Part shown: one piece after another, positions 5,328 to 61,567 of the stretch | How positions within the stretch are numbered: the stretch's first letter is position 1 | Layout of the letters: every line of letters starts with the position of its first letter | Program-made: the position numbers and the translations under genes | Source: Aequorivita iocasae | GTDB lineage: Bacteria > Bacteroidota > Bacteroidia > Flavobacteriales > Flavobacteriaceae | Reading direction: 5' to 3' | Length of the DNA stretch: 64,000 nucleotides | NCBI RefSeq assembly: GCF_016757735.1 | Contig: NZ_CP068439.1 | Span: 682,001-746,000 of the forward strand | The notes under the pieces: generated by a model | Databases searched by the model: none | What the model saw: only the letters and a program-made list of their open reading frames with translations | Told to the model about the DNA's origin: nothing

Positions 5328-6122
5328 CTAATATGTAACATCAAACTCCCCTTCGGTAATTTCTGTCCTATTTGTTATAAAGGAAAAGCTTCCTTTTATA
5401 GTTTGTTCAGAAACATTGTGCTCAAGTACGGTTATCAATCCCTCAACCGTATCTTCAGGCCCCGACACCCCTTGGTATTTTGCTGAAAATCCTCCTCTTG
5501 GCAAAATATACTCACCCGGCTCTACCCCTGCGGTAACTGATATTACCATGGTGGCATTGGCCGTGCTTCCAGAAATTATAATGGTATTTCCCGTATTACG
5601 TGAAGATACGATAACTGGAATATAAGGATTGCCATCCACTTTAGCGCTAAACAAGCCAGCATTTGTGGGATCCACGATATCTCCACCAGTATATGACACA
5701 TTATAAAGGATGCCCTTAGAAACATAGATAGTGTCAATTCCCGGTAAAAAGGCATTAAAATTAAATGTTCCCGAAAGTGTTTTATTGGTTTCGTTAAGTT
5801 CTGAAATAGTCACAACACCTTCTCCATTTGGATTAGTGGTATATATATTTCCGCCCATATCTTCATAAACAGCATAATTAGCGCTGCCCTGCCCAATGCT
5901 AAAGTTGCCTTCGCCTAAACGTGAGAGTTGAATAGTCATAGACTCTTCGTCATTGAACCCCTGGATGGTAAGTGATCCATCCTCATTTAATGCCGCGCGC
6001 GCATCGGCAGATGCATATAGTCTATCATCCACCTTGGCCTGTAGGGCAAGCTCATTGGTTTGTGTATCTTCGCACGAAATAAGCGAGAGGGTAGCTAAAA
6101 GAACAAATAGAAACTTTTTCAT
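5328..6122 (-). CDS. Lipoprotein with two similar domains (DUF6252-like)
   Basis: A 264-aa predicted lipoprotein. The signal sequence ends in the lipobox LISC with Cys17, followed by E and D, which in Bacteroidota can favour surface export. Two halves look alike. Each opens with a phrase of the type AKVDxxxY (LQAKVDDRLY near residue 29, FSAKVDGNPY near residue 159). A glycine-rich beta stretch follows, then a segment ending in GTFNF or GSFSF. This resembles flavobacterial DUF6252 proteins, but the family name is from memory and the function is unknown. It is monocistronic, divergent from rpsP. Confidence 0.7.
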   Translation of the reverse strand: MKKFLFVLLATLSLISCEDTQTNELALQAKVDDRLYASADARAALNEDGSLTIQGFNDEESMTIQLSRLGEGNFSIGQGSANYAVYEDMGGNIYTTNPNGEGVVTISELNETNKTLSGTFNFNAFLPGIDTIYVSKGILYNVSYTGGDIVDPTNAGLFSAKVDGNPYIPVIVSSRNTGNTIIISGSTANATMVISVTAGVEPGEYILPRGGFSAKYQGVSGPEDTVEGLITVLEHNVSEQTIKGSFSFITNRTEITEGEFDVTY

Positions 6123-6208: not shown

Positions 6209-6259
6209 CCGTCCTTAATTATAACCGGGGTCGGGAACCCCAAAAATTAATTTTTAAAT

Positions 6260-56529: not shown

Positions 56530-58722
56530 CTAAAACTTTATAATAGCTCCCACTAAAAAATTAATCGTTGCCTGCGGATAATAGCCCGCACCTTCAATTG
56601 TTGTAATTGTTCCCGGATTGCTGAAATCGTCATCGTAAGTATAAAAATAGCCGTTGGAAATATATTTTACATTAAATATATTGTTTACCAAAGCCGAAAA
56701 AACAACTTCTTTTACCCACGGAAGTGTGTCCAAGGTGTAAACGATATTTAGATCATTGATGAAATAGCTATCCAATTTTGAAACCTCGCTGTCAATATTA
56801 CCCATATATTGCTCGCCCACAAACTTTGAAAGAAAGCCTAATTGCAATTTCTTCATGGGTGAATATTCCAGCATGTTTCCTGCAACTACAGCAGGCGAAA
56901 ACGAAATATTGGTGTTGCCTAAATTCACTAATTCGCCATCGCGAGAAGCAACGAAATCTACATTTTTATTGGTACTCAAAGCAATATTTGGAAGCGTTCT
57001 CAAATTTTTCAAAAGCTGTATTTCGGCATCCACTTCCAATCCCAAACGGTAGCTTTTTCCGCTGCTGGTTCTTAAGGCCGCACCCACGTCGTTCAATTCG
57101 CCAGAAAGGACTAATTGGTCTTTGTAATTCATATAAAACACATTTGTATTCACTTTTGTTTTTTCTGAAGCGAAACGCCAACCCAATTCAAAATCGTCCA
57201 GTTTTTCCGGAGTAATAATTCCTTGTTCATAATCGTTTCGGGAAGGCTCGCGATGGGCTTTTCCATATGAAAAATAGAATTGATTTGAAAGATTCAATTT
57301 ATAAGTCAATCCCGCTTTTGGGTTGAAAAACGAATAGTTTTCATCTACATTCAAAGGAACCAAATCTGAAGTAATCCCAGAAGTTTTATAATTCAAAAAC
57401 CTACCCTGCAAATCGCCAAAAACGCTCCACTGCTCGTCAATTTTATAGGTTGCCTTTGAAAAAACGGTGAACTCACTTTTCTCGCCATTTCCTTCGTAAT
57501 AACGATCTCGAATTTCCGAATCGCTGGCGTAGCGCGCCCAGATTACTTCGCCGTAATGGTCGCCAGTGTAATAACTGTAAAAAGCGCCACCGGTAAAATC
57601 AATTTTGTTGTTTTTGTAATTCACGTTTGCATTTGCTGCATAAAAATCATTATCCAACCAACGACGGCGGATTACATCGGTTGTATTTATTGTATCGTTG
57701 CCAATTTCAATCGGTTCAAAACCGTAGGTTTCAAAATCTTCGTCTTCTTTATATTGCTCAAAATAACCCTTTCCTTTTGTGTAATTGAAAGAAACATTTG
57801 TGCTCCAATTGTTATTGAAACGTTGGTTCCAAAGCAATTGATAGTGATCTTGCGCATAATTATCCACTTCGTTATCATAAAACTGAAGGTTCCCATTTTC
57901 ATCAGTGTACATTCCAACGGTATTGTAAGTTCTGTCGTTTTTAAGCTTTTCGGGATCTTCCAAACCGTTCCAGGATTGGTAGGTTTCTTCTCTTCCGCCA
58001 AAAACCAAAGATTTAATTAAGGTGTTTCTATTTACAAAAGCCCCCTGTAGAAAATACGATTTCAAATCGGAACTGGCTCTGTCTATATAACCATCCGATT
58101 GAATGGTTGACAACCTTCCCGCTAATTCAAACTGGTTGGAAAGCAAGCCAGTGCTGAACTTGACGTTATGTTTGTGTGTATTATAACTTCCGAAGGAATT
58201 TGCAATTTCGCCATACGCTTCATTTGAAACGACATCACTCAACAAATTCAAACTTGCACCAAAAGCGCCCGAACCGTTGGTTGAAGTACCCACGCCCCGC
58301 TGCAATTGCAAACTTTGCACAGAAGAAGTAAAATCGGGCAAATTCACCCAAAACGTGCCTTGGCTTTCAGAATCATTATACGGAATTCCGTTCAAGGTAA
58401 CATTTACGCGCGAAGCATCACTTCCGCGAACCCGAATGTAGGTATAGCCCACACCCGCTCCCGCATCGCTGGTGGTAACAACCGACGGAAGATAATTGAG
58501 CATATATGGAATATCCTGACCAAGATTTCTTTTTTCAAGCTCTTCTGTGTCAAGATTTGAGTGGGTAATGGGCGAATCTGCTTCAACACGGACGGCTTTT
58601 ACCAAAACTTCGTCCAATGATTCAACTTTTGTGGAATCTTTCGTTTTTTCCTGCGGCGTTTCCTGTGCAGAAACGGAAATAAACAATAAACTGAAAACTG
58701 CGGAAATCAATAACTTTTTCAT
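56530..58722 (-). CDS. TonB-dependent outer-membrane receptor, probably for thiamine
   Basis: A 730-aa receptor. The signal peptide ends near residue 19. A TonB-box-like LDEVLVKAVRV is near 35-45. The plug domain carries YIRVRGSDASRVNVTLNGIPYNDS and the barrel ends VGAIIKF. No carboxypeptidase-like N-terminal domain precedes the plug. A TPP riboswitch and terminator in the 5' leader strongly suggest uptake of thiamine or a precursor. From family knowledge, thiamine-regulated TonB receptors are known in Bacteroidota. No thi biosynthesis gene is adjacent. Confidence 0.9.
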   Translation of the reverse strand: MKKLLISAVFSLLFISVSAQETPQEKTKDSTKVESLDEVLVKAVRVEADSPITHSNLDTEELEKRNLGQDIPYMLNYLPSVVTTSDAGAGVGYTYIRVRGSDASRVNVTLNGIPYNDSESQGTFWVNLPDFTSSVQSLQLQRGVGTSTNGSGAFGASLNLLSDVVSNEAYGEIANSFGSYNTHKHNVKFSTGLLSNQFELAGRLSTIQSDGYIDRASSDLKSYFLQGAFVNRNTLIKSLVFGGREETYQSWNGLEDPEKLKNDRTYNTVGMYTDENGNLQFYDNEVDNYAQDHYQLLWNQRFNNNWSTNVSFNYTKGKGYFEQYKEDEDFETYGFEPIEIGNDTINTTDVIRRRWLDNDFYAANANVNYKNNKIDFTGGAFYSYYTGDHYGEVIWARYASDSEIRDRYYEGNGEKSEFTVFSKATYKIDEQWSVFGDLQGRFLNYKTSGITSDLVPLNVDENYSFFNPKAGLTYKLNLSNQFYFSYGKAHREPSRNDYEQGIITPEKLDDFELGWRFASEKTKVNTNVFYMNYKDQLVLSGELNDVGAALRTSSGKSYRLGLEVDAEIQLLKNLRTLPNIALSTNKNVDFVASRDGELVNLGNTNISFSPAVVAGNMLEYSPMKKLQLGFLSKFVGEQYMGNIDSEVSKLDSYFINDLNIVYTLDTLPWVKEVVFSALVNNIFNVKYISNGYFYTYDDDFSNPGTITTIEGAGYYPQATINFLVGAIIKF

Positions 58723-58785: not shown

Positions 58786-58826
58786 AAAAAAACCCTGAGA
58801 ATATTGCGTCGTGCAATATTACAGGG
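58786..58826 (-). terminator. Riboswitch-controlled intrinsic terminator
   Basis: Minus-strand stem CCCTG-AATATTGC (58826-58813) with GCAATATT-CAGGG (58807-58793), interrupted by small bulges, then a run of seven T (58792-58786). It lies between the TPP aptamer and the receptor gene. Confidence 0.85.
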
Positions 58827-58976
58827 GGTTCCTATTTGTTATCCCTTGGCGGCATTACCCGCCCAGGTTCTTTGGGTATAATCTCAGCCTTTTGAAGTTG
58901 GAATTTTGAGCGACGAGCGACGAAATAGTTTCGTAACTCGTATCTCCAATTTCGTACTTCCAAAAGCACCCCTTTG
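58827..58976 (-). ncRNA. TPP (thiamine pyrophosphate) riboswitch
   Basis: On the minus strand the THI-element signatures appear in order: GGGGTGC (58972-58966), CTGAGA (58887-58882), TACCC, GAACCTG, the GGGTAATGCC region (58870-58851) and GGGAT (58845-58841). These are the conserved P2/J, pyrimidine-sensor and pyrophosphate-sensor segments. Between GGGGTGC and CTGAGA lie about 78 nt that fold into a long P3/P3a arm (TTTTGGAAGT with ACTTCAAAA, then ACGAG/CTCGT and ACGAAA/TTTCGT). Binding TPP should favour the downstream terminator and switch off the receptor. The 390-bp spacer holds no coding gene. Confidence 0.93.
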
Positions 58977-58986
58977 AGATGTTCGG

Positions 58987-58994
58987 CAAAAGTA
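58987..58994 (-). promoter_or_regulatory. Promoter -7 box of the riboswitch/receptor transcript
   Basis: Minus-strand TACTTTTG (58994-58987), about 15 bases before the GGGGTGC of the aptamer. TTG triplets occur 12 and 22 bases upstream. Confidence 0.6.
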
Positions 58995-59113: not shown

Positions 59114-61567
59114 ATGGCCACTTCAAAAAATAAATTCACCTTTAAAATTATTCTTAGCTACCTCGTTTTGGGAGCTTTATCGGTTTTGGTTGGCGCTTTT
59201 TTATATTCTGAATTCAAAAATTTCACTGCCGAATCTACTGAAACAAAAGGCGAAAAAAAATTCATTGAAACCGGAACGCTCATCAATCTGGTTTACGAAA
59301 CAGACGGATTTTCAAGACTTGCGCTCTTAACGGAAAGCGATGAAGATTTTGAAAAATATATGGCCAAAACCGATTCGCTTTTTAAAAAAATTGAAGAAAT
59401 AAAGTCGCTCACAAATAATGATTTTCAATTAAAGCAACTTGACAGTGTAAAATCTTTATTAAAAGATAAAAACCGAAATATTGAACAGCTTCGTATTCTT
59501 CGATTGACCAACAAAAAAGACACTTCGCTGGACGATATTATGCGCGAAGTGCGTAAACTAGAAGCTTCTGTTGGCCTGAACTCAGTAGAGTCATTAATTA
59601 GAAATCCCTCGAAATTAAACTCCCAAGAACGCAGAATATGGCAAAACTATGCCGATTACCTCAACAGTGACGCCACGCGCGATACTTCTACCGTAAAATC
59701 GAAAACAGTAGATTCTATGCTGCTTGCAGCGCGGTATATTGTTGCCGAAGCCAAAAAAGAAAACTCGAGAATTCGGGAATCTTTGATACAAAAAGAGAAT
59801 GAATTGATTCGAAACGACCTCAATATTTCAGAACGTTTGCGGGAAATAATTGCCAGTTTTGACCTCGAAATTGCAAAAAACAATAATCTGGAAAAACAAC
59901 AGCGGGCCGAATCTATGGAACGCACAAAGGAAATTCTGAAGTTTGCGGGCATCTTGGGCGGCATCGTGGTTTTGTTATTTTCATATTTTATACTTTCAGA
60001 TTTTTTTAGGGCAGAACGCTTTAAAAAGAATTTGGAGGAATCCAAAAATTATGCTGAATCATTACTGAAAAGTCGCGAGCAGCTTATTTCCACGGTAAGC
60101 CACGATCTAAAAACACCTTTGAATACAATCAGCGGTTATTCCGAACTATTTGAAAATTCAAACCTTTCGGAAAAGCAGAAATACTATTTGGGGCAAATCA
60201 CTTCAAGCTCACATTTTATTTCACATTTGGTGGATGATTTGCTGGATTTCTCCAAACTGGAAGCAGGAAAATTGCCTATTGAAAGCGTTCCATTTTCTTT
60301 GGAAAATATCATCGTTGAGGCTGGAAATGCTGTGAAACAACAATTTCCGCAAAAAGCTGTTGATTTAAAGCTTTCCATTTCAGAGAAAATAAAAAGTAAA
60401 ATTTTTGAGAGCGACCCGTTACGGATTCGTCAGATAGTGAATAATCTCGTGGGCAATGCCTTTAAATTTACTGAAAAGGGAAGGGTTGAAATTAAGGTTG
60501 AGGAAATTCAGGAAGTTGGTAAAATTTCAACGGTTCAAATTTCAGTAATAGATACGGGGATTGGAATTTCCAAAGAAAAACAGCAACTTATTTTCAATGA
60601 ATTCACACAGGCCGAAACTGAGATTGCACACAAATTTGGCGGTAGCGGTCTGGGATTGGCCATTTCAAAAAAAATCACTGAGCTTTTGGGTGGAAGCCTA
60701 AAGGTGGAAAGTGTTTTGGGTGAGGGAAGCAACTTTATTTTAACCCTTCCGCTGAAAAATTCAGATAGGATTTTGACGAAAAACATTCCGAAGGAACACA
60801 TTTCGTTTGAAGGTCTGAAAGCCGTAATTATTGACGATGACGAATCGATGCGCGCACTTTTACAGGAAATTTTTGAACAGATGAATATTGCTTCCCAAGC
60901 ATTTCAAAGTTACAACGATTTCAAAGCTTACAGTTTGGGGGTTGATTTTGATTTTGTCCTAACAGATATCCAAATGCCAAAAACCGACGGTTTTACTGTT
61001 TTGGAAAAATTGAAAAATGGCGAAATAAATTCTTATAAAAACCAGCCAGTTATTGCAATGACTGGAAGTAGGGAGCACAGTCGTGATTTTTACCTCAAAA
61101 AAGGATTTTCTGAAATGCTTCCAAAACCCTTTTCAAAACAGGAGCTCGTTGTGGTTTTGGAGCGCATTTTTCCAAGCCGCAGGAATTTTTCGGAAGAAAA
61201 AATTGTGGATGAAATTTTCAAATCAGATTCCACAGCCAACGAAAAATTTGACCTTTCCCTTTTAAAATCCTTTTTAAATACGCCTCAAGCCTTGGAAGAA
61301 GTCCTGGAGGTTTTCAACGCCCAAACCGAAAAAGATTTGCAACAAATAAAAAATTCTATTGCCGAAAATGAAACAAAAACTATTTCTGAAATTGCCCACC
61401 GAATGCTCACGATGTTCCGCCAAATAAGGGCGAAGGAAGTTATTCCCATTCTCGAAAAAATGGAGGATTACACTGCAGAAACAGTGGAATCTGGGGAAAT
61501 GAAGATGGATTTTGAAAAGCTGGAAATGAACTTCCGCGATTTGCGAAAAGCACTTTCAATCCGATAA
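59114..61567 (+). CDS. Hybrid sensor histidine kinase with receiver and HPt domains
   Basis: An 817-aa tripartite phosphorelay protein. The first membrane helix is at ~11-31. A periplasmic helical region of about 240 aa is rich in heptads (KEILK, KENSRIRESL). The second helix is at ~277-296 (FAGILGGIVVLLFSYFIL). HisKA H330 is in VSHDLKTPLN, with HATPase motifs NNLVGNAFKF, DTGIGI and GSGLGLAISKK. The receiver has DDDES and phospho-Asp618 (VLTDIQMPKTDG). The C-terminal HPt has His762 in EIAHRMLTMFRQI. All relay residues His-Asp-His are present. The final acceptor is plausibly the sigma-54 regulator encoded convergently 3 bp away. Confidence 0.93.
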   Translation: MATSKNKFTFKIILSYLVLGALSVLVGAFLYSEFKNFTAESTETKGEKKFIETGTLINLVYETDGFSRLALLTESDEDFEKYMAKTDSLFKKIEEIKSLTNNDFQLKQLDSVKSLLKDKNRNIEQLRILRLTNKKDTSLDDIMREVRKLEASVGLNSVESLIRNPSKLNSQERRIWQNYADYLNSDATRDTSTVKSKTVDSMLLAARYIVAEAKKENSRIRESLIQKENELIRNDLNISERLREIIASFDLEIAKNNNLEKQQRAESMERTKEILKFAGILGGIVVLLFSYFILSDFFRAERFKKNLEESKNYAESLLKSREQLISTVSHDLKTPLNTISGYSELFENSNLSEKQKYYLGQITSSSHFISHLVDDLLDFSKLEAGKLPIESVPFSLENIIVEAGNAVKQQFPQKAVDLKLSISEKIKSKIFESDPLRIRQIVNNLVGNAFKFTEKGRVEIKVEEIQEVGKISTVQISVIDTGIGISKEKQQLIFNEFTQAETEIAHKFGGSGLGLAISKKITELLGGSLKVESVLGEGSNFILTLPLKNSDRILTKNIPKEHISFEGLKAVIIDDDESMRALLQEIFEQMNIASQAFQSYNDFKAYSLGVDFDFVLTDIQMPKTDGFTVLEKLKNGEINSYKNQPVIAMTGSREHSRDFYLKKGFSEMLPKPFSKQELVVVLERIFPSRRNFSEEKIVDEIFKSDSTANEKFDLSLLKSFLNTPQALEEVLEVFNAQTEKDLQQIKNSIAENETKTISEIAHRMLTMFRQIRAKEVIPILEKMEDYTAETVESGEMKMDFEKLEMNFRDLRKALSIR

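Follow-up and report, generated by a model that had tools for sequence, protein, structure and literature searches.

A probable P1-less TPP riboswitch with an exchangeable P3 arm before a putative thiamine receptor gene of Flavobacteriaceae

The element that precedes a TonB-dependent receptor gene on the minus strand of the window (the whole stretch of 64,000 nucleotides that was analyzed) probably represents a P1-less TPP riboswitch subtype of Flavobacteriaceae, controlling a TonB-dependent thiamine receptor; the probability of this reading is put at about 0.68. Judged from its conserved parts, the element is a genuine TPP riboswitch, with predicted binding of TPP, before a probable thiamine receptor. 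A more detailed reading, in which the RNA would start at the aptamer, its AAAGGGG would switch between the aptamer and a hairpin at the start codon, and P3 would be a docking place for repeat hairpins swapped by recombination, is held tentatively, at somewhat less than an even chance. The genome of the window (3.35 Mb, one contig) is placed in or beside Aequorivita, and its nearest relative by the receptor is A. soesokkakensis with 95% receptor identity. The comparative set consists of the window and 80 loci from a protein search with the receptor, which belong to Flavobacteriaceae or to unplaced Bacteroidota.

A covariance search of 421 nt matched the TPP riboswitch model RF00059 over its full length at 58983-58825 of the minus strand (34.7 bits, E 3.2e-5), with a block of 69 nt skipped as an insertion. 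The motifs GGGGUG, CUGAGA, ACCC, GAACCUG, and UAAUGCC were all found in this order in the core. The conserved THI-element segments that an earlier note had read on this strand are thus present, and the spacing between GGGGTGC and CTGAGA, given there as about 78 nt, measures exactly 78 nt. In the covariance check which that note proposed, the match spans the model, with a score lower than the Rfam gathering score of 54.3; for this reason, a plain Rfam scan of the whole window omits the aptamer, and its sole entry is an S16 leader. Folding of the 209-nt stretch gave -67.4 kcal/mol, with a z of -4.3, and 0 out of 200 dinucleotide shuffles were as low. The upper boundary of the RNA had been set too far at 58994, which is the first base of the TACTTTTG promoter box instead (table 1).

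Table 1. Positions of the predicted riboswitch elements and adjacent genes in the window
Feature	Position	Strand	Evidence
TACTTTTG, TAnnTTTG promoter box	58987..58994	minus	TAnnTTTG spacing conserved in 81/81 loci
AUCUCA at predicted transcript start, complementary to aptamer UGAGAU	58975..58980	minus	TCTCA conservation, alternative helix
GGGGUGC, P2 5' strand of TPP aptamer, AAA just before	58966..58972	minus	RF00059 alignment
P3 arm of 78 nt, folding as a hairpin built from 7-nt repeats (arm family TACGA)	58888..58965	minus	Repeat, fold, and arm-family analyses
Remaining TPP aptamer core: CUGAGA, P2 3' strand ACCC, P4/P5	58841..58887	minus	RF00059 alignment
Intrinsic terminator (AACCCCCUG...CUCAGGGUU + U7)	58786..58830	minus	-15.5 kcal/mol before T7
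Proposed antisequestor hairpin GAAUAA-CGCCCCUU-UUAUUC, CCCC loop	58744..58763	minus	Alignment, pair counts, covariance model
Proposed sequestor AUUCGUA...UACGAAU(G), overlapping the receptor start codon	58721..58747	minus	Pair counts, energies
Gene of the TonB-dependent receptor (730 aa), probably for thiamine	56530..58722	minus	Plug PF07715, barrel PF00593
Divergent hybrid histidine kinase gene, neighbor outside the switch	59114..61567	plus	Opposite-strand kinase upstream in relatives

Both aptamer anchors stand before the receptor in the window and in 80/80 relatives, with as many as three mismatches allowed for the right anchor. The aptamer core precedes the orthologous receptor in all 80 relatives, whose loci were fetched by receptor similarity. 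These leaders share with the RF00059 riboswitches the GGGGUG, UGAGA, and ACCC motifs, the P4/P5 with UAAUGCC, the position before a thiamine-related gene, and a terminator or a start-codon platform. On the contrary, they are without P1, their transcript is predicted to start at the core with a UCUCA able to pair with UGAGA, P3 is very long in about half of them, and none of the 81 aptamers reaches the gathering score. Annotation by the Rfam cut-off overlooks the riboswitches of these receptors.

Every P1 pair of the window is marked as nonstandard in the RF00059 alignment. P1 was measured as the longest helix that the 11 nt upstream of GGGG can form with the 16 nt downstream of the 3' strand of P4; by this measure, none of the 81 receptor aptamers had at least 6 bp and two had exactly 5 bp. 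In the control, that is, 16 TPP riboswitches of thi operons directly after the receptor, at least 5 bp were found in all 16 and 6 bp in 14. The TAnnTTTG sequence, which we take to be the -7 promoter box of Bacteroidetes, is located 20-26 nt upstream of GGGGTG in 81/81 loci, and TCTCA lies 7-10 nt upstream of it in 77/81. From these spacings, the RNA is predicted to start at or just before UCUCA, so that no room is left for the 5' strand of P1. A scan found no sigma-70 consensus promoter at the locus, as expected for Bacteroidetes. The comparison of the loci shows that the aptamer core is reached within a few bases of the predicted start of the transcript and that P1 cannot form. UCUCA complements the UGAGA that binds the ligand, and the ligand-free alternative helix differs from the aptamer fold by no more than 0.3 kcal/mol. 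L081 and L085 keep the aptamer, but they have neither UCUCA nor the conserved element at the AUG. In the known class, P1 is the switch helix and makes no contact with TPP, as stated in an excerpt of PMC11477058; its absence marks a variant and is compatible with TPP sensing for this reason.

Just before the receptor start, 78/81 leaders contain GAAUAA-NNN(NN)-CCCC-UUUUAUUCGUA-loop-UACGAAUG, with variations. These 78 rows form the alignment of the AUG element, with L019 (element farther upstream) and the two leaders devoid of it (L081 and L085) left out. Two helices were proposed. The antisequestor GAAUAA:UUAUUC shows standard pairing in 99.3% of cells, with two pairs (three cells) changed on both sides, and the sequestor AUUCGUA:UACGAAU in 95.7%, with three such pairs (eight cells). 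Both exceed the slid controls on paired cells; in the double changes of the sequestor, the slid control at -1 has 10 cells against the eight observed. The covariation rests on few rows (including L045, L046, L077, and L090), because most columns of the element are nearly invariant.

A covariance model of the AUG element recovered the site of the window in its genome (E 1.5e-11), and no other match there fell below 0.6. Across 149 Bacteroidia genomes, five matches were obtained, the window's included. The other four are located 108-183 nt after a TPP core, and Rfam confirmed the three that were submitted. The start codon of the receptor is overlapped by a conserved, predicted pair of hairpins, which, by the modeled energies, can hide it; the sequestor is more stable than the antisequestor in 67/78 rows. 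In addition, pairing is possible between the CCCC stretch and the AAAGGGG at the 5' side of the RNA (mean -9.1 kcal/mol, 80 rows). This loop pairing is a pseudoknot outside the scoring of the folding program, and it is closed to a covariation test because the aptamer fixes GGGG.

From these parts, switching without P1 may be outlined as follows. Binding of TPP would stabilize P2 (GGGU:ACCC) and the core, by which the 5' strand AAAGGGG would be withdrawn and UGAGA freed from the UCUCA of the 5' end. Without TPP, AAAGGGG would pair with the CCCC loop in the hairpin near the AUG, the antisequestor would be kept in place, and the receptor would thus be made; we infer that this pairing is what the TPP-driven formation of P2 removes. 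With TPP, the more stable sequestor would hide the AUG and, in the species having a terminator, the terminator would form too.

The hairpin with seven T after the aptamer, already recognized in the earlier note, is present (table 1), and it is absent from the list of a generic terminator scan with rules of its own. Terminator-like hairpins before at least T5 were found in 39/81 leaders, the window's among them. This would suit an ordinary transcriptional TPP riboswitch, in which TPP favors the terminator, P3 is neutral padding, and the AUG hairpins are an unrelated feature of translation initiation. The retention of the core across P3 lengths from 9 to 95 nt and the optional P3a in the known class (PMC2258182, in excerpt) agree with it as well. 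However, about half of the 81 leaders have no such terminator and yet keep the aptamer and the AUG element, which in this genome is found only before the receptor and elsewhere follows a TPP core, and P1, the normal switch helix of the class, is absent. A purely transcriptional riboswitch is unlikely on these grounds, and switching without P1 at the start codon is preferred. The use of the terminator as the platform, with a nested antiterminator AGGGG:CCCCU, was rejected, with a cost of ~7 kcal/mol and a predicted probability of zero at equilibrium. Another repeat class, consisting of GC-rich palindromes such as TCGAGCGCAGTCGAGA or TAAGCGCAGCGAAGAAT, was seen within the receptor leaders of L042, L075, and L090.

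The receptor has both the Plug and the barrel domain above cut-off, and no homologue was found in the PDB at E 1e-5. Its gene starts 165 nt after the first base of CTGAGA. In seven loci (L028, L030, L031, L079, L083, L084, and L087), the similarity to the receptor starts near residue 30 and the upstream frame is ~290 nt longer, which suggests that these receptors carry an extra N-terminal region.

Directly after the receptor, 16/80 relatives have a canonical TPP riboswitch with a score exceeding the Rfam cut-off (7/20, 0/20, 3/20, and 6/20 in batches of 20). In the two loci whose reading frames were examined, L057 and L080, it is followed by thiS- and thiC-like genes, and Pfam confirms these calls for L057. 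In the genome of the window, a six-frame search with positive controls gave no match for ThiC and none for the TMP-TENI (ThiE) family, which bears, for these two families, on the question raised earlier of whether the genome lacks thi genes. ThiC is found in 2/28 genomes of the genus. The import of thiamine or of a precursor, as previously proposed, is supported by the downstream riboswitches, the absence of ThiC and ThiE, and the likeness to BT2390 (OMthi) of Bacteroides thetaiotaomicron, which matters for thiamine uptake (PMC5613172, in excerpt). Very probably, the gene encodes a receptor of thiamine or a precursor, this substrate being a prediction. OMthi is of the same gene type and regulation class, with a TPP riboswitch preceding it, according to the same excerpt. 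It differs from the case of the window, where the genome is without a ThiC or ThiE-family match, and the likeness is drawn on the gene type and the regulation class. The excerpt also calls the function of TPP riboswitches in Bacteroidetes uncertain and reports that no significant transcript change was seen for the transport operons.

The genome has no match for TPK_catalytic (PF04263) either. This result is not simple to fit in, since free thiamine would need another kinase, and could indicate a different substrate, such as TPP itself or one of the precursors (pyrimidine or thiazole). For precursors alone, however, no known route would be left to join them, as neither ThiC nor a ThiE-family protein was matched, and BT2390 acts in the uptake of thiamine (PMC5613172, in excerpt). 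A different substrate is quite unlikely compared with thiamine.

The statement of the earlier note that no thiamine genes are nearby holds inside the window. Just past the window end, however, the genes of a PnuC-family transporter and a NadR-like kinase are located on the receptor strand, ~7.5 kb upstream, in a cluster with DUF4301 and ArfB-like genes. The NadR-like kinase gene is found beside pnuC in a genome with no match for ThiC, TMP-TENI, or TPK_catalytic, and no TPP riboswitch was found on pnuC. In 28/80 relatives, the receptor has the nearest genes of this cluster upstream on its own strand, and a divergent histidine kinase is upstream of the receptor in 49/80, as in the window.

The extended P3/P3a arm of the earlier note stands as far as the long P3 is concerned; a separate P3a hairpin was ruled out, as the arm folds as one long stem. 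The length of P3 is bimodal, with 9-33 nt in 39/81 aptamers, 43-46 nt in 3/81, and 55-95 nt in 39/81. Among the 39 long arms, self-match is best at lag 7 in 19 arms and at lag 14 in 13, and the mean match at lag 7 is 0.50 compared with 0.30 in shuffles. The cut-off for the heptad label (0.45, set by the authors, as were the arm families) was passed by 30/39 long arms. On the receptor tree, this label requires at least 10 changes, nine of which are forced by starred branches.

Hairpins with z of -2 or less are formed by 29/30 heptad arms and 9/9 of the other long arms, compared with 7/47 heptad arrays elsewhere (sampled genome, best of three windows) and 22/100 random segments. This potential in 38/39 long arms, their clustering at 78-95 nt, and the presence of an arm of 68-98 nt in 24/28 Aequorivita genomes could be explained by a selected regulatory module which binds a protein or an RNA or times transcription. 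Nevertheless, the 39 sequences with the shortest P3 manage with 9-33 nt, the freely interchanging arm families have no sequence relation to one another, and P3 has to close in any case, which by itself leads one to expect that a hairpin is retained. A selected module is accordingly considered doubtful, and a tolerated repeat cassette is favored.

A derivation of the arm from a hairpin element dispersed in the same genome was rejected, the best other matches being partial (15-34 nt, E 0.0016-0.9). Several of them fall in heptad arrays. Degenerate arrays of this kind are common in the genome of the window: at threshold 20, 29 arrays have period 7 and 0-6 have each of the other periods from 4 to 11; at the loosest threshold of 16, periods 6 and 9 reach 83 and 77 arrays against 76 for period 7. 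Many of them lie in G000 C1:2695001-2710000 (L111) and other sampled stretches, and they are dense around 2.70 Mb. An ungapped strict search of 459 kb found 10 strong hairpins, of which the P3 arm is the only heptad hairpin, and would miss looser ones. An example of the latter is a heptad hairpin of the GATT type in the genome of L024 (L183:515-615), which is flanked by two apparent genes and shares 71% identity with the P3 arm of that genome. Direct repeats of the heptamer TAACTGA are known from intergenic regions of five Bacteroidetes, including Aequorivita sublithincola, according to an excerpt of PMC4679880. Those are direct arrays of one heptamer, whereas here degenerate heptads form an inverted hairpin arm inside a riboswitch aptamer.

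Within Aequorivita, the arm tree includes 26 taxa, namely the 24 pattern-bearing genomes, L019, and L028; four of the 28 genus genomes failed the pattern. Three arm families with end sequences of their own (TACGA, GATT, and GAGTT) account for 22/26 taxa and are scattered over the gene tree. The grouping of each family as one receptor-gene clade was rejected (AU p 1.3e-8, 9e-133, and 1e-60). Over 325 pairs of the 26 taxa, the identity of the arm is unrelated to that of the gene (rho 0.03, gaps ignored), whereas the 3' core block follows it (rho 0.85). In three gene rows, N-terminal differences lower the identities when gaps are counted. The 120 nt upstream show a rho of 0.06, which fits two kinds of upstream neighbor.

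The clearest contrast is between L168, a metagenome assembly, and L179. Their flanks differ by one base in ~250 upstream and by none in the core block, the leader, and the first 250 bases of the gene, and yet their arms of 83 and 78 nt are unrelated. The isolates L032 and L023 show the same contrast, with 90-100% identity in the flanks and 54% in the arms.

Families that are old alleles sorted differently by lineage, or a recombination of the gene rather than the arm, could also produce such conflicts. The gene tree is weakly supported (5/23 inner branches starred), so that the starred branches alone force only one to two changes per family, and L168 and L179 share ~700 nearly identical bases around the arm, by which a larger tract would have moved too. 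These two loci, however, differ in the arm alone within nearly identical flanks, the single-clade grouping was rejected for every family, and the neighboring 3' core block tracks the gene. Old alleles or a moving gene are improbable in view of this. The P3 arm is evidently free to vary and has been exchanged between species as a self-complementary cassette of 7-nt repeats, and its spread probably proceeded by short-tract homologous recombination via the near-identical core on both sides. Such an exchange is a rare case in which the replacement of one RNA domain as a cassette can be seen cleanly, with the other parts of the riboswitch tracking the gene tree.

TPP riboswitches are described as switched by P1, and a family-wide subtype invisible to Rfam would offer a defined alternative for Bacteroidetes, that is, an aptamer at the start of the transcript without P1 and with a conserved AUG platform, testable on short RNAs. 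Judged by title and the start of the abstract, none of the open-licence PMC papers searched describes heptad arms, P3 insertions, P1-less TPP riboswitches, or riboswitch recombination.

A second TPP aptamer (48.6 bits) is located at G000 C1:2969673-2969773 on the minus strand (L014:9673-9773 -), with its own terminator-like hairpin directly after it. No ORF of at least 150 aa directly follows on that strand, and the aptamer is possibly a stand-alone TPP-responsive RNA. An element of this second type with a terminator is also found in another member of the genus (L181:about 5604-5735 +), convergent to prfB. In the window itself, the S16-Flavobacteria ribosomal protein leader (RF03138) lies at 6218-6251 of the plus strand with 42.5 bits.
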